Counted from the first letter of the stretch, positions 1,486 through 19,215 are shown. The stretch is 26,861 bases of DNA from a virus (IMGVR_UViG_3300022693_000457:1-26861), one strand, 5' to 3'. Notes: generated by a model from the letters alone, not told the origin. Numbers and translations are program-made.

Positions 1486-2031
1486 ATGAAACTGATTAGA
1501 GCAAAAGTTAAAACCCCTTATAATTATGACGGGGATAAAGGGTTAGAAAAACACAAGGCCAGGATTTTAGCAATGGTCGCTTTATTAGGAAAATGGGGAA
1601 TTACTTTAAACCAAGAAAGGTTTGACGAAGGCAGTAACTATAGTTTATTCTCGTCCGATGAAGTTTTATTGTCTCCTGAGGAATATACAGATTTAGTAGT
1701 AGAGCACAAAATTGAATTTGAATCTTTCTCTTATCTTAAAACTTCAAGCAGTAAAGATGGAAATCCTTTTGAAGCTCTTATGGCTAAAATGGAAGAAGTT
1801 CTGAAAATGAACCCAACTCAAGGAGATGTTAATTATAACTCTAAGTGTGAGGTGCATACACCAGGCCAAGCATTGAGTATTTATAATGACACTCTGTTAA
1901 TGGAAGATGCCTGCACTGATGAATTACAGGGAAAACTTACGGAAGGGTGGCGAATCATTGCTGCTTGTCCACAACCAGACCAACGTAGACCTGATTACAT
2001 ACTTGGTCGCTACACACCGGAGAATAAATAA
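1486..2031 (+). CDS. Unknown phage protein, 181 aa
   Basis: I do not recognise a firm family. The protein is soluble, with no signal peptide or membrane segment. The N-terminus is basic (MKLIRAKVK) and the C-terminus, with DELQGKLTEGWRIIAACPQP followed by DYILGRY, resembles a small compact domain I associate with phage accessory proteins that end in a 'GWRI-AxCPQ...R-DYILGR' pattern. That resemblance is from memory and not verified. The start has AGGA (1476-1479), 6 bases upstream. The stop overlaps the next ATG by one base (TAATG at 2029-2033), so the two genes are probably translationally coupled. Confidence 0.75.
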   Translation: MKLIRAKVKTPYNYDGDKGLEKHKARILAMVALLGKWGITLNQERFDEGSNYSLFSSDEVLLSPEEYTDLVVEHKIEFESFSYLKTSSSKDGNPFEALMAKMEEVLKMNPTQGDVNYNSKCEVHTPGQALSIYNDTLLMEDACTDELQGKLTEGWRIIAACPQPDQRRPDYILGRYTPENK

Positions 2032-6490: not shown

Positions 6491-6509
6491 AATAAATTTG
6501 GAGTATAAT

Positions 6510-7811
6510 ATGCCAGTATCAATAGTAGAGATTTCAACTATAGTCATAGGTAATAATAGAAAAAGAAAAGAGTTTCCTGTTGCAGCTATGGAAGAATTAT
6601 CTGATGGTATTCAAGATGTTGGGCTTATCAATCCTATAGTCATAGAGATGAAGGAAGGTATTAGATATTTAGTAGCGGGTGAGCGTAGACTTAAAACCAT
6701 AACGGCCTTTACAGATGCTTATATGTTTGGGTCTCTCAAGGTAGCTGCAGGGTTCATACCTTGTTTGGACCAGGGAAATATTGAACTTCTTAAAGCCCGT
6801 AAGATTGAACTGTTTGAGAATACACAACGGTTAGATTTTACTTGGCAGGAAAAAGATGCAGCTATGGCAGCTGTGCAGGAACTCATGGAGGAAATAGAAG
6901 AAGAACCTATAACCTTAGACAACCTTACTAGAACTTTGTTGAAGAAAGAATCTGTAAGTTATAATGATAAAGTTAAAGTTGAAAAAGCTTTACGCAGACA
7001 AGAGTATGCTGAGGACCCTTTAGTTTCTAAGGCCAAATCATCTAAGGATGCTGATAAAATAATTGAAAGTAAATTACTGGAAACTCATAAAGAAAAAATG
7101 GCAGGTATGTTTAAGGAAATAGAGAGTCCACATAATATAATCTTTGCAGATAGCATAGAACATTGTAAAGGGTATAAAGATAATACGTTTGACGTGGTTG
7201 TTTCAGACCCTATCTATGGAATAGACATGGACAAACAAAATGCCTTTCAAAGAGTCAAAATGCAAGAGGGGAAACTTCATGGGTACGATGATAGCTACAT
7301 TAATTGGAAGCGTATGTTTGATGTTATGCCTGAAATACTTTATAAAATCACAAAAGAGGAAGCTGCATGTTACTTATTTTGTGACATTTCCAGATTCGAT
7401 GAACTGTCACAGCGCATGGAGGCAGCAGGCTGGTCTGTATGGAATCGTCCTATCATCTGGTATAAAGGAAACATTGGGTCTTTGCCGAGACCTAAGCATG
7501 GCCCTCGATACACCTATGAGTGCATCTTATTTGCCACCAAAGGGGATAGAGAAACAACGGGAGTCTATCACGATGTTATTACTATCCCACAAACAACTGG
7601 ACATTCTCACGGGGCGGGCAAACCTATTGCTCTTTACGAGGAGTTACTTTCAAGGTGTGCCCATCCTGGAGATAGAGTTCTTGACTTTTGCGCTGGCTCT
7701 TTTCCCATTCTCACGGCATGTAATAAACTAAGCTTGCAATGTGATGCCATAGAGTTGGATGAGAAATGGAGAAATGAATCTGAAATTAGAAAAGTAGATT
7801 CCCTTAACTAG
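6510..7811 (+). CDS. ParB-like domain fused to a class beta DNA methyltransferase
   Basis: Residues 1-75 match the ParB/Srx N-terminal fold: INPIVIEM then YLVAGERRLKTI, the GERR box typical of the family. Residues about 205-430 are a methyltransferase with motif IV first (SDPIYGID, Asp233-Pro-Ile-Tyr236) and motif I late (LDFCAGSFPI at about 391-400), the class beta order for N6-adenine or N4-cytosine enzymes. Two key positions differ: DPIY replaces DPPY, and the SAM-binding loop reads CAGSF rather than FAGSG. Such ParB-MTase fusions are common in phages and probably protect DNA against host restriction. I chose ATG 6510 over an upstream in-frame TTG because GGAG (6500-6503) lies 6 bases before it. 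Bases about 7240-7700 use GC-richer codons. 433 aa. Confidence 0.85.
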   Translation: MPVSIVEISTIVIGNNRKRKEFPVAAMEELSDGIQDVGLINPIVIEMKEGIRYLVAGERRLKTITAFTDAYMFGSLKVAAGFIPCLDQGNIELLKARKIELFENTQRLDFTWQEKDAAMAAVQELMEEIEEEPITLDNLTRTLLKKESVSYNDKVKVEKALRRQEYAEDPLVSKAKSSKDADKIIESKLLETHKEKMAGMFKEIESPHNIIFADSIEHCKGYKDNTFDVVVSDPIYGIDMDKQNAFQRVKMQEGKLHGYDDSYINWKRMFDVMPEILYKITKEEAACYLFCDISRFDELSQRMEAAGWSVWNRPIIWYKGNIGSLPRPKHGPRYTYECILFATKGDRETTGVYHDVITIPQTTGHSHGAGKPIALYEELLSRCAHPGDRVLDFCAGSFPILTACNKLSLQCDAIELDEKWRNESEIRKVDSLN

Positions 7812-7821
7812 GAGAGTTATT

Positions 7822-8235
7822 ATGAATAAAATTATACTACAAAAACAACCAACACCACAGACTTGTACCCATGCTAGTCTAGCTATGGTAGCTGGTGTAA
7901 CAGTTGAAGATGTTATAGAGAAGGTAGGACCACAGCCTCTGGGTCATGAGCTATTGGAAGAGTTATTTAACTTCTATCATTTAAAGCATGAGTATATTCA
8001 TGGGTACTCGATTGATGTTGGGTCTGTCTATATAGTAGACGTTCCGAGTTTACAGACAAAGGCTACCTTACATAAAATAGTTCTAGACTTAAGAGGTACA
8101 GATGCTCCCGTCTTGGTATACGACCCGATGCTTTCTCAAGGAGAAGCTTATACTATTGAGATGTTAACTAATGGTGTGTTGCCTTTTGGTAATGCCATAA
8201 AAGTCTGGAAGGAGTTACCTAAGTATGTTAACTAA
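7822..8235 (+). CDS. C39-like (papain-fold) cysteine peptidase homologue
   Basis: Residues 9-22 (Gln9 ... QTCTHASLAM) match the peptidase C39 start: Gln six residues before the catalytic Cys15, then a helix. His84 in LHKIVLD and Asp101 in VYDPM complete a Cys-His-Asp triad at the family spacing. At 137 aa it is a bare single domain, with no transporter or signal peptide, so it would act inside the cell. Targets are unknown; cleaving a host protein, or a non-proteolytic papain-fold role, are both possible. AGGAG (7810-7814) is 7 bases before the ATG and overlaps the preceding stop. The gene ends 11 bases inside the polymerase gene, so it is coupled to it. Confidence 0.68.
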   Translation: MNKIILQKQPTPQTCTHASLAMVAGVTVEDVIEKVGPQPLGHELLEELFNFYHLKHEYIHGYSIDVGSVYIVDVPSLQTKATLHKIVLDLRGTDAPVLVYDPMLSQGEAYTIEMLTNGVLPFGNAIKVWKELPKYVN

Positions 8236-9958
8236 TTATTGTTATATCCCAGAGGATTGGAATGGTATCTTATTGGTTGGGGATTATCCTTATAAAGAAG
8301 ATAAGAAATCTGGTATTGCTTTTAGAAGTTCACAAGGTCTTCAGTTAAGAAAGCTTTTAACAGAAGCTGGTATTCAATTTAAAAAATGTGGAGTTTGCCA
8401 TGCGCTTAGCTATACCCCAGTACGGGGACAGGTTGACAATGAAATCCTTAAGAAGACAGCAGCAAAATCAGATGAATCATCTCGCGAATGGGGAGGGAAA
8501 TTTGTTACCGGAAAGCTCTTTGATTCATTTGAGGAACTTAGAAATCTCATTGAAGAAATATGCCCCTCATTTATCTACAGTTTCGGAAAGATGGGTTTGC
8601 TTGCGTTGCATGAAGAGACTAACGTTGACGGGTATCGTGGGTCCCAGCTTGAGTACGCGGGCATCCCTTATATCCCAACACACTCAATGGCCAGGCTGTC
8701 CAAGCAGTGGAAGCTCAGGCATCTCATTGTACACGATATCCGGAGGGCGTCTGAGTGCGGCTTCAAATGGGACGTGCCAGATTATTCATTCATAACTAAC
8801 CCAGACTTTGAAACTGTATTGTACAACTTAGGATTGTTACAGGCAATGGCTTGTAATGGAGCTCATCTTTCTGTAGATATAGAGACTAGATGGGCGAGAC
8901 ATATATCCTACGTAGGCATAGCTTGGAGTAAACATAATGCTATCTGTATACCAATTATTAAGCCTCTCAATGGCGGTAACTATTGGAGCGATGATGAGTT
9001 GTTTACTATTGTTATGGCTCTTAAGTCATTACTTGAGATGCCGCAGGTTAGAATCTCAGGACAGAACTACCACTATGACGCTAGTTTTTTCGCCCGTAAT
9101 TGGGGAATACGAAGTCATATCTGGTGTGATACAATGGTCGGATTTCACTCCTACTTCGCAGCAGATATTGACAAAGGCCTGCATGTTTTGTCCTCTTTGT
9201 TTTGTGATTACCACGTCTATTGGAAAGATGAGAGTGAAAATCACGAGCCGACAGTGGCAGGAGAACTCAAGTATCAAGAATATAACTGTAAGGATTGCTG
9301 CCATACCTTCGAGATAGCTGAGAGTATGATGTCACCAGATGGTTTACTTGCAGGGAATTCTCGGGCTTGGCAGTTCCAATATGATATGTGGAATCCTTTA
9401 TTTAATATTATGCTCAGAGGAACTAATGTTGATATGGAAGAGCGTAAAAATATCTATAATTCTACTAGGGAGAAGATAGGCGAGGTAACTTATCTTATAA
9501 CTAAATTTACTAAAGATGTTTTTAATCCAGAGCCTAAACATTTCCCAGCGAATACTACTAGTATAAAAGTAATTGCAGATAAGAAAAGATATAGAGAAAA
9601 GTTTGGTGGTTGGTGGGGTAGTCCTGGAAAGTGTAATGAATTTTTCTATGATGTTATGGGAGTTGAACCTGTAACAAAACGTAATAGACTAACAGGTAAA
9701 TGGGGGAAGACAACAGATGATAATGCTTTGGGAATCATTCAAGACAGGGAACCTATTCTATCGGTTGTCGCTGAGCTTATTAGTCTTTATAGAAGTCTTT
9801 GCAAGTTCCTTGACGCTGTTAACAGTACTGTATCTAGTGACGGGCGCTACCGTTCTGGATACAAACTTGCCGGAACTTCAACCTATAGATTGGCGAGTGG
9901 TTCTGACCCATTTGACGAAGGGCTTAACCTTCAGAACATAAGTAAAGGAGACGGATAA
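8225..9958 (+). CDS. Split family A DNA polymerase, N-terminal part (UDG-like + 3'-5' exonuclease + thumb)
   Basis: First of two polymerase polypeptides, 577 aa. Residues 1-190 resemble a family 4/5 uracil-DNA glycosylase (VGDYPYKED, GIAFRSSQG, then THSMARLSKQW), a domain known in front of some phage PolA enzymes. Residues about 200-400 are a DEDD proofreading exonuclease with all acids present: Asp218/Glu220 (VDIET), Asn281/Asp285 (QNYHYD) and Tyr353/Asp357 (YNCKD). The thumb and first palm part follow, ending in GTSTYRLASGSDP and NLQNI (Asn571), the template-binding signature before motif A. The frame then stops after SKGDG; motifs A, B and C are in the gene at 10277-11212. AAGGAG (8209-8214) serves the ATG. 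GC-rich patches (for example 8641-8760, 68/120 GC) alternate with AT-rich ones. Confidence 0.9.
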   Translation: MLTNYCYIPEDWNGILLVGDYPYKEDKKSGIAFRSSQGLQLRKLLTEAGIQFKKCGVCHALSYTPVRGQVDNEILKKTAAKSDESSREWGGKFVTGKLFDSFEELRNLIEEICPSFIYSFGKMGLLALHEETNVDGYRGSQLEYAGIPYIPTHSMARLSKQWKLRHLIVHDIRRASECGFKWDVPDYSFITNPDFETVLYNLGLLQAMACNGAHLSVDIETRWARHISYVGIAWSKHNAICIPIIKPLNGGNYWSDDELFTIVMALKSLLEMPQVRISGQNYHYDASFFARNWGIRSHIWCDTMVGFHSYFAADIDKGLHVLSSLFCDYHVYWKDESENHEPTVAGELKYQEYNCKDCCHTFEIAESMMSPDGLLAGNSRAWQFQYDMWNPLFNIMLRGTNVDMEERKNIYNSTREKIGEVTYLITKFTKDVFNPEPKHFPANTTSIKVIADKKRYREKFGGWWGSPGKCNEFFYDVMGVEPVTKRNRLTGKWGKTTDDNALGIIQDREPILSVVAELISLYRSLCKFLDAVNSTVSSDGRYRSGYKLAGTSTYRLASGSDPFDEGLNLQNISKGDG

Positions 9959-10284
9959 TGAAGATACTTAAAGCAGAAATAAAAGAGGGTAGCAGGGCAA
10001 CAGGACGTACCTTTAGAAAACTCCTTAGGGCTTTAGCTGATGCTTCCGAGGGTGCTGATGTTTTATACTGGGTTAGTAATTACTCTATGGTGAAGGGGAC
10101 TTATAAAGATGCTCGTTATATATGCGAGGGTTACGGTTTAAACTCAGAAGACGATAGCCGTAAATTTGAGATTGACTTTCCTAGTGGAGGTTCTTTAACG
10201 TTTACATATGCATCTAAACGTGAGGTAGAGATAATACGTATGAAGCATCGTGTAAAATTAGTTGAGGATTTATACCATGAGTAG
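9958..10284 (+). CDS. 108-aa protein between the polymerase halves, possible degenerate P-loop fold
   Basis: It sits exactly in the break of the polymerase. Its ATG overlaps the N-part stop by one base (TAATG, 9956-9960), its AAAGGAG site (9944-9950) lies within the last codons of the N-part, and its end overlaps the C-part start by 8 bases. No GIY-YIG, HNH or LAGLIDADG motif is visible, so it does not look like a homing endonuclease, and no intein motifs are present. EGSRATGRTFRKLL followed by ADVLYWVSNYSM resembles a P-loop NTPase start in which the usual GK[ST] is GRT, then a beta strand; FPSGGSLTFTYAS and VKLVEDLYHE fit later strands. This resembles small phage NTPase-like proteins, but without the Walker lysine it may only bind, not hydrolyse. 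Function unknown. Confidence 0.72.
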   Translation: MKILKAEIKEGSRATGRTFRKLLRALADASEGADVLYWVSNYSMVKGTYKDARYICEGYGLNSEDDSRKFEIDFPSGGSLTFTYASKREVEIIRMKHRVKLVEDLYHE

Positions 10285-11212
10285 GGCAGCGGATATGTTA
10301 ACTAGGTGGGGATATAGTTTCTCTAAGCCTAATATTAAAACAGTGTTTATACCGGACCCAGGTTATGTTGTCATTGATGTTGACTTGGAGCAAGCTGATG
10401 CACAGGTAGTTGCTTGGGAGTCTGATTGTGAAAGGCTTAAGCAAATATTCAAAGACCCGACTAAGGATTTGCATGATGAAAACACCAATCTCATTTATGG
10501 ATTTTGTAGAGATGATATTCAATCTGGAACCATATCAGATAGAAATTTTACACGGCTTCGAAAGAATACAAAAGGGGGAGTTCATGGGACGAACTATCGT
10601 GGTAAGGCGCCGACGATTGCAAAAACTCTGGGAATTACAATCCCCGAGGCCCAAGCCTTCCAAGATACTTGGTTTGAGAAGAACCCAGAAATCTTGGATT
10701 GGCATAAGGCAACAGAAGCCGCGATTATTGAGAAAGGATATATCGAAAATAAATTTGGCTTCCGGAGAATATTCCTCGAAAGGCTTTCGCAAGATGTACT
10801 CAACGAGGCGCAAGCGTGGATTCCCCAGTCAACGGTTGGTAACGTAATCAATAAAGGGTGGATGAATATAGAGGAGCGTATCAATGGGAGGAAGTGTGGG
10901 GGTCATGGCTTCTTTTCTAAGGATTACAAGAATGCTGCTAGCCAAGAATTGATTGGTAAAGAATTATCTAAAAGATTTGTTAGAAATCTTTCTCGTATTG
11001 AGCATGTGAAAGTTCTTATGCAGGTTCATGATAGTCTGGTGATGATGGTTAGGAAGAGTGACCTTAAACACTTGCTACCTGACATCCGTGAATGTATGCT
11101 TGTACCTATTCCCTATGATGAGCCGTTAACAATTGGTGTAGGGAATCCGGAGATTAGCGATAGAAGTTATGGGGAAGTTAAACCTCATACGTGGGACGGA
11201 GATAAAATATGA
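10277..11212 (+). CDS. Split family A DNA polymerase, C-terminal catalytic part
   Basis: Carries the palm and fingers, 311 aa. Motif A is FIPDPGYVVIDVDLEQADAQ with catalytic Asp36 and an Asp (41) where E. coli Pol I has Glu710. Motif B is RKNTKGGVHGTNY, with His at the position equal to Phe762 of E. coli Pol I. Motif C is MQVHDSL, with Ser in place of the second acid. Residues before motif A (KPNIKTVF) match the linker that normally follows NLQNIP, so no conserved segment seems lost at the split. I use ATG 10277, with GAGG at 10264-10267, rather than an in-frame TTG at 10262. Both parts are needed for a complete active site, so they must associate. GC-rich codons dominate about 10560-10830. 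Confidence 0.9.
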   Translation: MSRAADMLTRWGYSFSKPNIKTVFIPDPGYVVIDVDLEQADAQVVAWESDCERLKQIFKDPTKDLHDENTNLIYGFCRDDIQSGTISDRNFTRLRKNTKGGVHGTNYRGKAPTIAKTLGITIPEAQAFQDTWFEKNPEILDWHKATEAAIIEKGYIENKFGFRRIFLERLSQDVLNEAQAWIPQSTVGNVINKGWMNIEERINGRKCGGHGFFSKDYKNAASQELIGKELSKRFVRNLSRIEHVKVLMQVHDSLVMMVRKSDLKHLLPDIRECMLVPIPYDEPLTIGVGNPEISDRSYGEVKPHTWDGDKI

Positions 11213-11221
11213 AGAATAATT

Positions 11222-12445
11222 ATGCCTGAGATTGGGCGCAACTTCGATAACTTTATTAACAAATACATCGAGTATACAGATAATACTGAGTCGCCAAAAC
11301 AGATGCATTTTTGGACTGCAATCAGTATAATAGCTGGGGCTTTAAGTGGTAAGTGTAAGTTTAAGCATGAACGCTTAGAGGCTAAACCTAATTTTTATAT
11401 AGTATTTGTGGGGCCTCCTGGTGTAGTTAAGAAGTCAACTACTCTGGGTTACGGTATGAAGCTTTTAAAGAAAGTGGAGGGTATTAACATTGGACCTGAC
11501 AGCGGAACTTGGCAGGCAATCTTTCAGTATATGTCTGAGATAACTGATACATATAAAATACATGGACGTTCAGTTCTACAGAGTAATTTAATGCTACCCG
11601 TATCTGAGTTAGGTACGTTGCTTGACCTTAAGGATGATGCTATGGTAGATAGCTTTACAGATTTGTGGGATGCCGTAGAGGGAACTAAGACTAGGAAGAC
11701 TATGGGCGGTGGGACTATTACTGTTGAGAGTCCTTTTGTAAACATGATAGGCTGTACTACACCCGAGTGGATTAAACGGAGTTTTGATAGCTATACTATT
11801 GGAGGTGGTTTGGCAAGTAGGATTATTTTTGTAATAGGTAAGAAGTCAAAAACCTTTATTGCTTATCCGAAGGAGGATAAGGCTTTAATTGCATTAGGTA
11901 AAAGACTTGAAGATGATTTGAAAATTATATCTAAGATGAGTGGTACATTCAGGTTTTCTGAAAGAGCTGCAGAGTATGCTGAGAAGTGGTATATGCAGCA
12001 TAGACAGAAACCAGCTCCTCATTTAAAATCAAAGCAGATGCAGGGTTACTCAAGCAGGAAGCAAACTCATATTCATAAACTGTGTGTTTGTCTTAGTGCA
12101 GCAGAGACTAGTGATAGGGTTATACATAAGAGACATTTTGTTATGGCTTTAAAACTCTTAGAGGGAACTGAGAAAACTATGCATGAAGTTTATGAAGGAG
12201 TCACGGAAGATAGAAACGCAGAAAAAATCATGAAGGTTAAAGAATACTTAGTAGACTATCGAATAGAGGGTATACGAAAAAAAGAATTGTTTAAACCTAT
12301 GATGCTTTTAATGGGCTGGGATGATTACGAACGAGCAATTAATGCCCTGCAATTGGCGGGCTATGTTAAGCTAGTTGATACAGGTTCAGGTATCTTAATC
12401 AAACCAGACCGTAAACTTTTAAATACTTATGACGAGGAAGTATAA
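11222..12445 (+). CDS. DUF3987-like replicative helicase/primase-helicase
   Basis: P-loop protein, 407 aa. The loop reads FVGPPGVVKKSTT (Gly64 to Thr73), with Val and Lys where GK[ST] would be; from memory this GPPGVVxKST form recurs in phage DUF3987-type replication proteins. LMLPVSELGTLLDLKD and TDLWDAVEG fit the acidic Walker B region, and PFVNMIGCTTPEWIKRSF then GGGLASRIIFV fit the sensor and arginine-finger region. Residues about 330-400 look like a winged helix (KELFKPMMLLMGWDDYERAINALQLAGYVKL). Directly after the polymerase, it is the best candidate for the replicative helicase. SD support is weak (GAAG about 7 bases upstream of ATG 11222), so translation may depend on coupling. Stop and next start overlap as TAATG. 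Confidence 0.8.
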   Translation: MPEIGRNFDNFINKYIEYTDNTESPKQMHFWTAISIIAGALSGKCKFKHERLEAKPNFYIVFVGPPGVVKKSTTLGYGMKLLKKVEGINIGPDSGTWQAIFQYMSEITDTYKIHGRSVLQSNLMLPVSELGTLLDLKDDAMVDSFTDLWDAVEGTKTRKTMGGGTITVESPFVNMIGCTTPEWIKRSFDSYTIGGGLASRIIFVIGKKSKTFIAYPKEDKALIALGKRLEDDLKIISKMSGTFRFSERAAEYAEKWYMQHRQKPAPHLKSKQMQGYSSRKQTHIHKLCVCLSAAETSDRVIHKRHFVMALKLLEGTEKTMHEVYEGVTEDRNAEKIMKVKEYLVDYRIEGIRKKELFKPMMLLMGWDDYERAINALQLAGYVKLVDTGSGILIKPDRKLLNTYDEEV

Positions 12446-13044: not shown

Positions 13045-13180
13045 TTTAGATTACTTTAAAGTATGGTGTAATAAAAATGGGATTGACGAGATTGAGTTTT
13101 GGGGTAGACCTGGGTTTGAGAAAACCTTAAAGCCCGAAGGCTTCAAGACTAACAGGATTGTAATGTCACTTACTCTCTAG
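13037..13180 (+). CDS. C-terminal domain in the +1 frame (frameshift product, broken gene or TTG-start gene)
   Basis: The frame reads LDYFKVWCNKNG, IDEIEFWGRPGFEKTLKPEG and a hydrophobic end. This pattern (acidic strand, W-GR-GW/F, K-L-x-P-x-GF) matches a C-terminal block I know from small phage proteins, so it is probably coding. It has no good start of its own: the only candidate close by is TTG 13037, with GAGGGAG (13015-13021) too far upstream at 15 bases. The upstream gene passes through CCAAAACTTTTTGACTGA just before its stop; a +1 shift there, or a one-base homopolymer error in the assembly, would join the two. Coordinates use the TTG. The stop lies 11 bases inside the convergent gene. 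Confidence 0.5.
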   Translation: MTDLDYFKVWCNKNGIDEIEFWGRPGFEKTLKPEGFKTNRIVMSLTL

Positions 13181-16100
13181 ATTGTGCAACCCCATCATAA
13201 TATAGACGGTCTCTTTTACTTGTAGGGAGACCTTCTGATTTCTTCTTAATACTACGCATCTTAGATTTAAATGAAGCTGATAATTCCTTACCAGTAATTC
13301 TATAATTTCTAGTCTCTTTAGAGACGTGTGTTTCATTCCATTTTCTAATATCCAATAGAGCTTCTGATATAGCCTTAGTATCCTCATGATATCTTGCGTA
13401 GTTATGTCTCTCCATTAAACCTTGTCTACGTGTATTTAAGTAAGCAGTACCAGCCGCTTGCTCCCCATACAGTGACCAAATTTCTGAGGTCCTTGAGGCC
13501 GTGAAGCCTAGACCCTCAAACATTATTTCAGCCCATGCCTCTGGAGACTCCCTGTCATAGAGTAAGAACTCGGGATTTGTTCTAGTAGTCTCTGCCCCGC
13601 GTACTGCATGTCTCGCTGCTTTACTTAGATTCTTAGCAGCCACAGGTAATAGTTTCTCGATACGCTTCCAAGTATCAGGGTCGTCAGATGTAATACCTGT
13701 ATATACACTGTTAGCAATACTAGTCAAAGCGCCACCAGCTTGTAATACATAATCAGCTAGACCCGCATCTCCAGGAATTTCCCTGACGCCTGGGATTGGG
13801 GAACCCATAGATAAGGAGCCTTGTATGTTCATGTTTGGCACAGGCGCACCGAATAATTCTGCTAAGTGCAGTGGACCTAGCCCATACTGAGAGGCTGTAC
13901 CATTGATAACTAAGTCAGGATTAAACCATGTTTGTTGTAAGCCTTCTCTAATTTCACGCTCTACGTTTAATTCAGGGTCTTCCATTCCCAGTAGACCCGC
14001 TAAGGCAGTTCCTCCTAAATTTATTATTTTAAATATATAATCCATTCCAGGCAATCCTTGCAAGCCACCAGCTACTAGAGCTAGTAATAACATTCCTTTT
14101 GCGGTTGAGCGTCCAGTCTTAGTACGGGAGCCATTAGATACTAGGAATAAAAATTGCTGCACATATGATACGAATACCAAAGCTGCACCTGCAATTTTAT
14201 TTCTTTGAAAGATTGGTCTGTTCCATTTAGCATATTCAAACTGCGTTCTTTGGATAGAATTAACAGCCGCTTTGTAAGACTCTTCAAAGTTATTAGTTTG
14301 TTGCATATGCAGTTCGAACGTAGCTATAGCCATAGCTCGTCTATTATATTTCTCAGTAACTCGAAACAAAAACGAAGACGCCTCAGACAGTTTAGATATT
14401 CCCCTATTAATTTTGTTGTTTCTCATTCCTGCATATGACTCAGCCATAGCCGCTAGGTCGGATGCTGCGGACTCGTCAATGATTCCAGCCTGAGCCATTC
14501 GGTCTAATAATCGTTGTTGTGCGGACGTCATAGGGGTCTTTTTAACTAAGTGATTAGTTACTATAGCATAGGATTTTGCCATCATTTTGGTGGTGTTGGT
14601 TGTCCCGTAACGTGCCGATAAGTATGGCAAGGTGACTAAAATAGGTTGTGTTAGATTCACTACCGCTGATTTCACATTGAAGCCGAGGAACCAATGAAAC
14701 GCAGTAGAACGTAACATAGCAAAATCATTTGAAGCATTAAAGATATATTTAAAATGCTCTTGGTAATAAGAATGCATTAAGCTTAGGTCAGATATATCCC
14801 CAGTAAAAGTTTTGCGTAGTCTATCTAGCTTAGCTAACCCATCAACTAATTCCTTACTGTGCTCTATGCGAGCTAAGTGGTTAGAAGCAGAACCCATGTA
14901 AGCAGAGAAAGTTCTTTGTGCATCTCTACTAAATCCTGGAGTATTTTTTCTCTTCCGCAATTGACGTAAGAAAGCTTTGCCTGGGGATAGGTCAGACTCC
15001 GCCATAGCCAATGCTCTTTCCTGTTCCTCAGTAAGACCACCTTCAGATGCTCGAAGTTTATCTCCTATAGATTTAACTACGACCTGCGGCATACCATACA
15101 TAGCTTTAGCAGTATCAGTCATTCGGTCTAACTCAGGTATGTCATAATTATCTAGGTGACCATACTGAGCATTGTATATTTTCTGCGCTTCAAGGGCATC
15201 TGATTTAGATTCATATACTTCAAATATTTCTACAGTAGTTCTTATATTACCAGCTTCGTTTACTCCCCTACTGCGTACGGTTACTGCCCATTCCCCAAAA
15301 CGCATTCTAGGGAAATAGTCTCGTTGCTCAAGAGAATCAAATTGTTTGCGTACACTAGATAGTTCAGACCAAGCTTCTTGTTCCCTGCCCACTGCATACA
15401 ACTCTAATATTTCTGCTCTGCCTTCTTCACCTACTCGGTCAAGTTCAGATATCATTTCACGAGGGCTACCCGTAAACTCGGATAGAATTTCTACTTCAGT
15501 AGCTATGCGTAATCTAGATAAAACATCTTTGAAGGATGCTTGTATCTCGTTATATAAACCTACATACTTTTCAGATAAACCATTCTCCTTAAGAATTTTC
15601 AAAACTTCACTAGGGTATAATACCCTGCCAATCTCATCTGAAATTTCTGAAGTTTCATATAGAGTTTTGCCTAAAGCATCTGCTTGATCATCTGGCAGGT
15701 GTAACCATTCCTTAGAGACTTTATCAGCCCTAACTATACCACGCATTTTAGTAGCACTCCATGATTGAACACTCTCCATATAAGCCTGTGCCTCTGGAAT
15801 CTTGTAGCGTTCAGCAATCTGCAGTGGAGTTAGTCCAACGAATCCTAACTTTGTAAACCCAGTATGTAAATGTTCATTACGCTTCATAGCCTTAATCATA
15901 TCCCTAGTTAGCTTATCACCAGCTTCCGGAACTATACGTCCAGTTGGTGTGCTAAGGTCAGGTTCAATCATAGGTAGATGAGCTCCCTCTTTCAAATCAA
16001 TTACTTGTTTAAGTTCATCTGGGACCTTGTTAGTTATATAAGGAACACTCATAGCTAATTCGCGTACTCTATTTCTATACCCAATATTTTCTAACCAAGC

Positions 16101-18281
16101 AGAGAATTTTGGTTTAACCCTAAATAGTGCAGTGAAGTCCTTGTATAGTTCTTTAAGTTGTCTAGCTACTCCATCCCAGAAACTTGTAGACTGCTCAGGC
16201 TTTTTGTTGGCGGCAAGAGACTTAGCTACTTGCTCAGCCGCATACTCGTCAAAAGAAAGAATGTAAGTTAACTCTTTACGAGACATGTATTTATCAGCAA
16301 CTTCACTGAAAGGCATATCAAGAATAGTTTGTCCATAGTCAAGAATCATATACTCAGTGGGACTTCCTAATTCACTTAATACTTCTCCATAAGTCTTGTC
16401 TTTTAATCCCGCCAACATTTCACGGTGTTCAGATTTTAATTGGGAAAGCTCTTCTGTAGGAGTTTTATTAATATTATCTGCTATAATAGCATGGCCTACT
16501 TCGTGAGATAACGTAGACATTACAACTGAGAAAACGTCAGTATTCGTAATAGGTTTACTCCTATTCCCGTCTTCATTCATCTCAAACATTCTATTTTGAA
16601 TAACCTCTGGACGAACAGCTATATAGGACAACGGATTCTGTACTATCCCAGTAGCAGCAAGTTCTGAATTAAAGTCTACGTCATAGAGCATAGCGGAGTG
16701 ATAACCACCTGCACTTTGTTCTGCAGCTATTACGTCATTAGAATGCTCACCTAAAACTATAGAACGGTCGGGCAGATACTTTTTACGCCATGCTTCGACT
16801 GTATCATAGATTTGTGCTACTTGTTCCGGCTTTTGGTATGTACCAAATAAACTAGTTCCATTGCCTTGTATATAAGTTTTAGGTGCATTGGATTGTATTT
16901 GAGACATGGATATAGAAGAACTATTTAATACCCCATTCTCGAAAGAAGATACAGGAACAGTTAATAAAGCTTCCGGCATTTTGTTTGCAACTAATGCACC
17001 ATCAACAGTTTCAAAATTAGACCTATCTATTCTAGAGGTACCACTTGGTTTAGCAATAGGCATCTGCCCAGTACCCGTTACGAAAGCTTGGTCTCCAGTC
17101 ATAGAGGACACTTCGCCAATATTTATAGTACGCAGATTAGTAGATATGGCCTGACTAAGTGTACTCATCTCGTCATCTGGTGCTAAACTTTCCTGAGTAT
17201 TATCATCTTGTTTATCAGCTTCTTCTCGCGTATCAAGAACATCTTCTACTGGAGCCACATCGTCAGGCTTTCTAACGGGGGTTGTGTCCGTTGGAGTTCC
17301 TGGGATAATTTCGGTATCCTGCACAGGCGCCGCATTAGACTTAGATTGCTTAGCTTTTATACCAGCTTTAATAGTACCTGTAACAGCCTTGACACCTGCG
17401 GTTGTTACAGCAGCTCCGAAACCACCAGCCATGAAAGCATTAATAAGTTCATGCTGTTCTTTTGGTAAAAGTGCGATTGCTTTTTTAAGTGATACGTCAT
17501 TAGCTAACTCAGCATTAACTTGATTTATATACGTTTGTGCTGCTTCTGTCGTAGCTTCAACTACAAAGGAAGAGCCTGTTTCTACCGCAGCCCTTTTAAG
17601 TATAGCTCCAAAACCTGTAACTTCGGCAGACTTTTCGACAGCATCAAACAAGAAGTTTGACAATCCAGCATTCTTGAATATCTTTAAAGCAGAAAAAGTT
17701 TCTAAGGCTGTGTTCATTACAGTAGCTGGGACCATATTAAGTACTGTTCTTTCTGCGCCTGATGTATCAATAGTCTGTGCAGTTTCGCCAGCAGCTAATA
17801 GACCAGCACCTGCCGTAGTGCCTACAACAGCTGGAACTCCAAGAGCAGGAGCCGCTATAGTTGCACCTGCTACAATAAGGGCATTAACTGCATTCTCTAA
17901 ACTTTTCTCTATTGCAAAAGTACCTAAGTCGCCCCAGTCCTTAATGTCCTGAAACTCAGGAACTTCCGGTGGGAGCCTCGCACCTATTCTATCGGCAGCC
18001 AATTTCCAGTCTTCAGCTCCAATCAAATTTAAAATACTTCCAGCAGTAGCAAACGCTCCTCTCGCAATAGAAGCTGCAGGACCCGTTGATACTTCGCCTG
18101 GTCTATCTCTTTCAAAGAGACCTTGTTGCTGGCGAGCAAACTCAACAGCAGACATTTCTTCCTGAGGTTGGAACCCTTGCTGCTGCATAGCTTGGTTTTG
18201 TGAGACAGGAGGAGCGACCGAAGCCGCCCCTGGTAAATCAGACCCATCAATCGCAGGCTGTTTTAAATACTCATTAGGCAT
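13170..18281 (-). CDS. Giant internal/ejection protein with zincin motif (LPD38-type polyvalent protein)
   Basis: 1703 aa, probably packed in the capsid and injected with the DNA. Residues 1-60 are Gln/Pro-rich. About 127-168 is a long Ala/Gly/Val-rich hydrophobic stretch, and about 317-373 an acidic Pro/Thr linker. Residues 593-597 are HEVGH within STLSHEVGHAII, the HExxH zinc-peptidase motif, with a possible third ligand in FDEYAAEQ near residue 678. About 1195-1390 (FRVTEKYNRRAMAIATFELH and onward) resembles the large polyvalent protein-associated domain 38 of phage ejected proteins, followed by hydrophobic segments near 1365-1425. I chose the start at 18281 over an in-frame ATG at 18299 because GGAGG sits 5 bases before it and the preceding gene ends at 18283. 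It is the last gene of the - strand arm. Confidence 0.82.
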   Translation of the reverse strand: MPNEYLKQPAIDGSDLPGAASVAPPVSQNQAMQQQGFQPQEEMSAVEFARQQQGLFERDRPGEVSTGPAASIARGAFATAGSILNLIGAEDWKLAADRIGARLPPEVPEFQDIKDWGDLGTFAIEKSLENAVNALIVAGATIAAPALGVPAVVGTTAGAGLLAAGETAQTIDTSGAERTVLNMVPATVMNTALETFSALKIFKNAGLSNFLFDAVEKSAEVTGFGAILKRAAVETGSSFVVEATTEAAQTYINQVNAELANDVSLKKAIALLPKEQHELINAFMAGGFGAAVTTAGVKAVTGTIKAGIKAKQSKSNAAPVQDTEIIPGTPTDTTPVRKPDDVAPVEDVLDTREEADKQDDNTQESLAPDDEMSTLSQAISTNLRTINIGEVSSMTGDQAFVTGTGQMPIAKPSGTSRIDRSNFETVDGALVANKMPEALLTVPVSSFENGVLNSSSISMSQIQSNAPKTYIQGNGTSLFGTYQKPEQVAQIYDTVEAWRKKYLPDRSIVLGEHSNDVIAAEQSAGGYHSAMLYDVDFNSELAATGIVQNPLSYIAVRPEVIQNRMFEMNEDGNRSKPITNTDVFSVVMSTLSHEVGHAIIADNINKTPTEELSQLKSEHREMLAGLKDKTYGEVLSELGSPTEYMILDYGQTILDMPFSEVADKYMSRKELTYILSFDEYAAEQVAKSLAANKKPEQSTSFWDGVARQLKELYKDFTALFRVKPKFSAWLENIGYRNRVRELAMSVPYITNKVPDELKQVIDLKEGAHLPMIEPDLSTPTGRIVPEAGDKLTRDMIKAMKRNEHLHTGFTKLGFVGLTPLQIAERYKIPEAQAYMESVQSWSATKMRGIVRADKVSKEWLHLPDDQADALGKTLYETSEISDEIGRVLYPSEVLKILKENGLSEKYVGLYNEIQASFKDVLSRLRIATEVEILSEFTGSPREMISELDRVGEEGRAEILELYAVGREQEAWSELSSVRKQFDSLEQRDYFPRMRFGEWAVTVRSRGVNEAGNIRTTVEIFEVYESKSDALEAQKIYNAQYGHLDNYDIPELDRMTDTAKAMYGMPQVVVKSIGDKLRASEGGLTEEQERALAMAESDLSPGKAFLRQLRKRKNTPGFSRDAQRTFSAYMGSASNHLARIEHSKELVDGLAKLDRLRKTFTGDISDLSLMHSYYQEHFKYIFNASNDFAMLRSTAFHWFLGFNVKSAVVNLTQPILVTLPYLSARYGTTNTTKMMAKSYAIVTNHLVKKTPMTSAQQRLLDRMAQAGIIDESAASDLAAMAESYAGMRNNKINRGISKLSEASSFLFRVTEKYNRRAMAIATFELHMQQTNNFEESYKAAVNSIQRTQFEYAKWNRPIFQRNKIAGAALVFVSYVQQFLFLVSNGSRTKTGRSTAKGMLLLALVAGGLQGLPGMDYIFKIINLGGTALAGLLGMEDPELNVEREIREGLQQTWFNPDLVINGTASQYGLGPLHLAELFGAPVPNMNIQGSLSMGSPIPGVREIPGDAGLADYVLQAGGALTSIANSVYTGITSDDPDTWKRIEKLLPVAAKNLSKAARHAVRGAETTRTNPEFLLYDRESPEAWAEIMFEGLGFTASRTSEIWSLYGEQAAGTAYLNTRRQGLMERHNYARYHEDTKAISEALLDIRKWNETHVSKETRNYRITGKELSASFKSKMRSIKKKSEGLPTSKRDRLYYDGVAQSRE

Positions 18282-18282
18282 A

Positions 18283-19215
18283 TTATCCTCCGAAAACACT
18301 TTCCATTATAGAAACTTCTCTGGGTTTTGCAGTAGTCTTAGCTTTCCTAGCGGCCGCTGCTGCAAATCGTTTAGCAGCTTTTGGTCCATAGGTATCTTCT
18401 ATCTCTGCAGTTTTTTCTTCTAAAGCATTAGGGTTTATCTGCATATCAGAGGCAGTAGTTTCAACTAAATCTTTTAAGGTAGCCGAGTCTAAACTCAGAT
18501 GAATTGGTTTACCAGATAAATCATTATAAACCTTAAGCACATCACTCACTGGGACTTCCATAGACTCACCAAACTGATTGGTAGGTGCTGAGGCTTTTGC
18601 AGTTTTAAGTGCCGAGTCCCACAACTTTGCATTTACTCTTGGTGGTATATTTGTTTCAGCATTAAGCTTAGCAGTCTCCGCATCTAGCTTTTTCATTATG
18701 GTGAAGTCCTTCATTATGTCAGCAGAACTTCTCGTACTTAAACGTGTCTCAGCTTCTCGAAGAATATCGGTACGTACCTTTTTATCTTCCAAAGTTTCCT
18801 CAGCCATATCGCGCGCATGCTTACCTGATACAATGGTTTCGCCTGCAATAAGTTCTTTACGTTTAATGTCTCTTTCCGTATAAGCATTTTCTTTGGATTG
18901 CTGCAGAGCTAGGAGTCTTTTTTGAGTTTCATGCTGCTCCTTCAAAGTCTCCTTGTCACTAGCTTTTGTCAAAGCTCCAACCATCTGCATTCCAGCATCT
19001 GCTATATTTCCTCCGCCCATTAAAACGGAGCCAAACGCAAGCATACCTTCTGTGAATCCAGGTTTATCCATGAAATCAGTAAAGTGTCCTGCAAAAGAAG
19101 TATCCACTTCTGGAGCCTGCATTTGAGGAACTGCTACTGCTGGTGTACTTATCTCTGGTAAATCCAAAGAAGGCTGTCCACCTATACCCATATTTCCAAA
19201 CATACCATTAGCCAT
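18283..19215 (-). CDS. Probable internal/ejection virion protein, coiled coil, 310 aa
   Basis: No firm family. The N-terminal 50 residues are Pro/Gly/Met-rich, a short hydrophobic part follows (FGSVLMGGGNIADAGMQMVG, about 61-80), and residues about 85-190 are a long charged helix likely to form a coiled coil (KEQHETQKRLLALQQSKEN and onward). The C-terminal third is Ala/Lys-rich. This plan matches the middle ejection proteins of podoviruses (compare T7 gp15, P22 gp20), by architecture rather than sequence. GAGG lies 6 bases before the start. The stop is one base from the ATG of the 1703-aa protein, so the two are co-translated. Confidence 0.68.
   Translation of the reverse strand: MANGMFGNMGIGGQPSLDLPEISTPAVAVPQMQAPEVDTSFAGHFTDFMDKPGFTEGMLAFGSVLMGGGNIADAGMQMVGALTKASDKETLKEQHETQKRLLALQQSKENAYTERDIKRKELIAGETIVSGKHARDMAEETLEDKKVRTDILREAETRLSTRSSADIMKDFTIMKKLDAETAKLNAETNIPPRVNAKLWDSALKTAKASAPTNQFGESMEVPVSDVLKVYNDLSGKPIHLSLDSATLKDLVETTASDMQINPNALEEKTAEIEDTYGPKAAKRFAAAAARKAKTTAKPREVSIMESVFGG

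Follow-up and report, generated by a model that had tools for sequence, protein, structure and literature searches.

A phage family A DNA polymerase gene recurrently divided between NLQN and motif A, with exchangeable genes in the gap

The family A DNA polymerase encoded in the stretch of viral DNA analysed here (IMGVR_UViG_3300022693_000457:1-26861; 26,861 nucleotides, hereafter the window) is divided into two genes between the NLQN element and motif A, and a third gene occupies the gap. The same break recurs in numerous related loci, where the gap holds other genes or none. Very probably, the polymerase gene underwent recurrent fission after NLQN, its products form a translationally coupled, two-chain Klenow-like enzyme and the gap takes up neighbouring genes as cargo.

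The N-half (8225..9958, plus strand, as are all genes of this locus; 577 aa) comprises a UDG-like domain, a 3'-5' exonuclease, the thumb and the start of the palm up to NLQN, whose codons (9926..9937) are the final conserved element ahead of the break; its C-terminus reads ...GLNLQNISKGDG before the stop. The S-K-G-D codons of this half (AGT AAA GGA GAC) include a Shine-Dalgarno-like AAAGGAG (9944..9950, within the K-G-D codons; duplex energy -8.7), with the next ATG 7 nt downstream. The N-half stop and the start of the gap gene at 9958 overlap in a TAATG (9956..9960). The gap gene itself (9958..10284; 108 aa) belongs to phrog_3167, of unknown function, and is not a conserved feature of the relatives that share the split. 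It overlaps by 8 nt the start of the C-half (10277..11212; 311 aa), which carries motifs A, B and C and most likely starts at ATG 10277, the in-frame TTG 10262 being a longer alternative. A DUF3987 / primase-helicase-like gene (11222..12445; 407 aa) comes next after the polymerase, as it also lies downstream of it in two relatives, L001 and L003. Upstream, at 6498-7811, a ParB_N domain is fused to an N6/N4 DNA methyltransferase. On the minus strand, 13170-18299 is a 1709-aa ORF, and the gene at the matching place in Vibrio phage VS-ABTNL-3 is annotated as a putative DNA methylase.

The N-half matched UDG PF03167 (E 1.7e-5) and the C-half DNA_pol_A PF00476 (E 1.1e-21) in Pfam, while the N-half match to DNA_pol_A_exo1 (E 0.0074) fell under the Pfam cut-off. 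On the PHROG profile phrog_17 the two halves cover consecutive stretches, positions 476-989 and 994-1233 respectively, so that almost nothing is missing between them. The exonuclease residues D218, E220, D285, Y353 and D357 were invariant in a 41-row alignment, and the motif A Asp, motif B R/K and motif C HDS are conserved in the C-half. NLQN is retained in split and whole genes and, together with the thumb, sits in the N-half. The N-terminal UDG domain that marks the fused UDG-PolA subfamily (phrog_17) is present in the window; the single polypeptide usual for family A, but not strictly defining it, is replaced by two ORFs in the window and in 65 relatives. The two halves of the window are one family A polymerase, from which only a variable linker is missing. 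This agrees with a first-pass annotation, made from the sequence alone, which had placed the break between NLQN and motif A and seen no conserved segment missing. In motif B (RKNTKGGVHGTNY) of the window C-half, a histidine stands at the position of E. coli Phe762, and it is invariant in 59 relatives (A1, H86). A polymerase survey lists only Phe, Tyr and Leu types at this position (PMC6302109); a His-type polymerase may have a distinct nucleotide selectivity.

The place of the break was mapped on the predicted structure of a whole relative, L103 (pLDDT 97, pTM 0.93), as the first-pass annotation had proposed for a Pol I-type structure; all structure predictions were of single chains. Klenow and Bst polymerases were the top matches of this model (TMt about 0.8), the best being Klenow 8oo6 (TMt 0.80, E 1e-29), and it also matched UDG TM0511 (E 2e-19). 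L103 is thus confidently predicted to fold as a Klenow-like enzyme. A sequence search of the PDB with the window N-half alone returned nothing at E 0.001. In the L103 model, the break falls in a coil that follows strand 512-514 and precedes the motif A strand (558-564), equivalent on Taq to the loop NLQNIP-VRTPLGQR-IRRAF. Another family A enzyme, DNA polymerase theta, probably tolerates a large insertion (insert 2) in the corresponding loop. Polymerase theta is one chain, with an insertion rather than a break.

Relatives were collected by tblastn against phage records and by scans of IMG/VR and GTDB contigs. Of the related loci, 115 distinct ones had both halves, 66 of them split and 49 whole; the break is thus common within this polymerase family and no singular oddity. 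In all split loci the N-half ended 2-19 residues after NLQN, mostly 3-8 (typically ...IPKGEEDE before the stop), and in most of them the C-half restarted near (L)PN(I/V)RK, its exact start being ambiguous in some cases in which the open frame ahead of it continues through an overlapping gene. Gap length ranged from 5 to 2908 bp. One isolate with the identical split was found among the phage records, Vibrio phage VS-ABTNL-3, while whole relatives included Mel-JY34 and MW202489. In this nearest isolated phage, the N-half ends in NLQNLPKGDG and the polymerase is deposited as two genes, 40% and 50% identical to the window halves. Unlike in the window, its gap gene has 184 aa and is assigned to phrog_8380, the window homologue of which lies outside the gap (1486..2031, plus strand). 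The polymerase is not discussed in the literature we found naming VS-ABTNL-3.

Breaks at other places were also seen. A second recurrent one, after YWKD between exo motifs II and III, was present in L037/L038, L145, L148 and L150, with restarts overlapping or nearly so, and Caulobacter phage Kuura (L162) is also broken between these motifs, with two small genes in the gap. In L018 the UDG part is separate from the exonuclease-thumb part and the gene is split after NLQN as well, apparently giving a three-gene polymerase. In L161 (Nostoc plasmid pNe_3), a polA-like gene is divided into two CDS by its annotation and has an in-frame stop within the thumb region; this site differs from that of the phage split and the gene is possibly a pseudogene. 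The two polymerase ORFs of Enterococcus phage GiddyUp, considered as a case of the same split, overlap out of frame and look like a frameshift.

What the gaps contain differed widely: their 122 ORFs fell into 92 unrelated clusters, and some split loci had no gap gene at all. Pfam was run on named cluster representatives only, the remaining members being assigned by BLAST. By this procedure we found dUTPase (a cluster of 15 loci, representative E 4e-16), a ribonucleotide reductase barrel (5 loci, E 2e-104), the Lon-like protease domain Lon_C (4 loci) and Thy1/ThyX (E 6e-48), and among further representatives a YfbR-like nucleotidase, a methyltransferase, an SNase and an RNase_T exonuclease. In other phages some of the same families adjoin the polymerase, with dUTPase upstream of it and not inside in L081, L082, L099, L078, L079 and L142, and ThyX likewise in L069 and L111; the gap thus receives genes of the same early region. 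Within the well supported clade of the window (with L001, L078, L079 and L080) every gap is different and holds from zero to two genes: none in L078, the phrog_8380 gene in L001, two in L079, those of L079 and L080 being other small genes. The window gap gene had no homologue in any other gap. Since gap contents vary or are absent among relatives, the third gene of the window is exchangeable cargo and not a part of the polymerase.

Two other readings of the gap have to be weighed against these contents. The first-pass annotation had set the inserted, coupled gene apart as something special, and the window gene is indeed translationally coupled to both halves, as might suit a third subunit that helps them assemble. 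Its replacement or loss in the closest relatives, and the turnover of gap genes at large, contradict such a role as a general rule and leave it scarcely credible for the window. Alternatively, the gap could be the scar of a mobile element, a group I intron, an intein or a free-standing homing endonuclease once inserted at the break. The region is a known homing target: in Bacillus phage phiNIT1 a family A polymerase is likewise interrupted in this stretch near NLQN, just upstream of our break (after ...RLSSRDPK), and group I introns interrupt the polymerase genes of SPO1-type phages (Goodrich-Blair and Shub 1994, as cited in PMC10580990). Inteins moreover occur at other sites of the present family, at exo motif III (YN^C) of the L089 N-half (Pfam Intein_splicing, E 1e-9) and, recognised by their ends by eye and not by Pfam, apparently at AW(I/V)PQ^ST in the C-halves of L142 and L046; one gap, that of L093, holds an HNH_3 gene (E 1.7e-7). 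The phiNIT1 gap, however, contains genes for an endonuclease and a 'putative RNA maturase', which is what an intron would lead one to expect, whereas the window has neither an RNA-family match nor such a maturase. Rfam searches, group I introns included, were blank for the window and for 11 relatives with mostly large gaps. The window gap (318 bp) is coding throughout, and its gene overlaps both the N-half stop and the C-half start, leaving no room for an intron. N-halves stop ahead of any possible intein start, gaps of 5-52 bp are too small for a mobile element, endonuclease-like genes were found in about 1-2 of the 66 gaps, and most cargo genes are ordinary ones of replication or have no known function. 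The earlier view that neither intron nor intein lies at the break therefore holds, and a mobile-element scar is improbable, if less so than a third subunit.

Two further readings concern the polymerase itself. The two ORFs might be one gene, apparently broken by pseudogenization, a sequencing frameshift or a programmed frameshift, and in a few loci without cargo an indel error could, case by case, account for the break. Most gaps, however, are occupied over hundreds of bases by intact foreign genes that have starts of their own, as is the coding gap that contradicts this reading in the window. The break recurs in 65 loci besides the window, one of them in an isolated and annotated phage, and so is not a sequencing error, a possibility that had been raised for the window. 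Selection argues likewise: dN/dS was 0.04-0.22 in both halves where dS was measurable, most pairs being near dS saturation. We give next to no weight to this explanation. The halves might instead act separately, the N-half as a free UDG-exonuclease, the C-half being unused or another polymerase complementing. The N-half was modelled confidently alone (pLDDT 90.5), and Kuura too has a separate UDG-exonuclease part, but its cut lies between exo motifs II and III and so leaves that part an incomplete exonuclease. The thumb and palm segments of the N-half would be useless without the C-half, which for its part keeps motifs A, B and C and a low dN/dS, yet lacks thumb and NLQN. Neither a second family A polymerase nor Pol III alpha (for which the control worked) was found in ten relatives with 42-49 kb records, nine of them metagenomic records of unknown completeness and the tenth the isolated Vibrio phage; the window's own record, a 26.9 kb fragment, had no further C-half match. 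The apparent inteins of the two C-halves sit in the polymerase domain and thus would have to be removed by splicing for the protein to work. Separate action is accordingly very unlikely.

Distances of N- and C-halves were correlated across split loci (r 0.68, 0 of 2000 permutations), somewhat less than in whole genes (r 0.83). Purifying selection thus acts on both halves, which are also inherited together, and we strongly infer that the two chains assemble into one active site.

The next ORF started at -7 to +6 of the N-half stop in 58 of the 66 split loci, mostly in ATGA or TAATG/TGATG overlaps. In eight loci the very next start was that of the C-half itself, and cargo-free loci with a restart at an overlapping ATG include L081 and L078. 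Over the seven codons after NLQN, the median anti-Shine-Dalgarno pairing was -8.4 in split and -7.2 in whole genes, compared with -3.5 in windows drawn at random (P 1e-26 and 4e-13), the difference between split and whole genes being only modest (P 0.02). Along whole genes the K-G-D-E position ranked 6th of 778 for such pairing, the top peak being the natural gene end SWGE; several other conserved core positions have equally strong SD-like codons, yet are not break sites. Most phage genes carry SD sites, and for this reason the argument is partly circular. A latent ribosome site ahead of a loop of free length would nonetheless make the stretch downstream of NLQN a cheap place to break.

A tree with all splits as one clade was rejected (AU test, p 0.0003), and with it a single origin of the split. 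Parsimony gave at least 14 changes of state, of which the starred branches force at least 5; the trees are quick maximum-likelihood ones (LG+G4) with deep branches, too coarse to count fissions apart from fusions. The whole genes of L063 and L160 fell inside a split clade (p 0.00014, on a smaller tree), most simply read as re-fusion, repeated fission being possible. Thus fission recurred and re-fusion probably did too.

A simple model of this history would start from a replicative family A polymerase (UDG, proofreading exonuclease and polymerase) whose gene split at the surface loop linking NLQN to motif A. The site would be favoured because the conserved codons for (I/L)(P/S)-K-G-(D/E) happen to read as a Shine-Dalgarno sequence immediately ahead of a loop of free length. 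With a stop just downstream of these codons, ribosomes would restart at the overlapping ATG, and both products would be made from one coupled operon; the two chains, though not covalently joined, would come together again as one Klenow-like enzyme. Early genes from the neighbourhood (dUTPase, RNR, ThyX and others) would then enter the opened gap, as cargo that turns over. More broadly, and tentatively, at a little short of an even chance, fission may be repeated and reversible at loops following conserved codons that double as ribosome sites, giving an obligate multi-chain enzyme whose break is a standing slot for genes of dNTP metabolism. The break between exo motifs II and III, Kuura included, and the separate UDG gene of L018 fit such a reading.

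Split polymerase genes are already known. The closest published case we found is that of the OM43 phages MEP401 and MEP402 (Zobellviridae), with a family A polymerase in two ORFs and a small gene between; the accessible text of that report finds the split in most group I relatives there, suggests an intron, and does not describe cargo exchange, whole relatives or repeated splitting (PMC10580990). This break resembles that of the window in lying between NLQN and motif A and in enclosing a small ORF unrelated to the polymerase (77 aa in MEP401, by sequence inspection), but that of MEP401 comes about a dozen residues later (...NLQNFDGEIKTLFLSRYGE, stop / MILNADAKALEW) and its polymerase has no UDG domain. 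Polymerase genes of other families are also found in parts in phages: polymerase B of MIJ3, with a split intein and HNH (PMC6892783), and Pol III alpha in some jumbo phages (PMC7824862). The MIJ3 pieces are rejoined by an intein, whereas nothing rejoins the chains of the window. We found no publication describing a split of the UDG-bearing family in the open-access literature; what sets this gene-fission polymerase apart is its cargo slot, together with repeated switches between the split and the whole form.

When an essential enzyme is divided between two genes, this is usually viewed as having happened once and then become fixed. Here split genes coexist with whole ones, and cargo-bearing gaps with empty ones, in one family, making the start of fission, its reversal and its effect on polymerase function directly testable. 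In metagenomes, polA marker surveys demanding full-length genes will miss or truncate such phages, and a naturally two-part polymerase could serve as an engineered switchable enzyme. These observations suggest that, over evolution, the gene of a replicative polymerase can come apart, perhaps fuse again, and offer other genes a place to insert.
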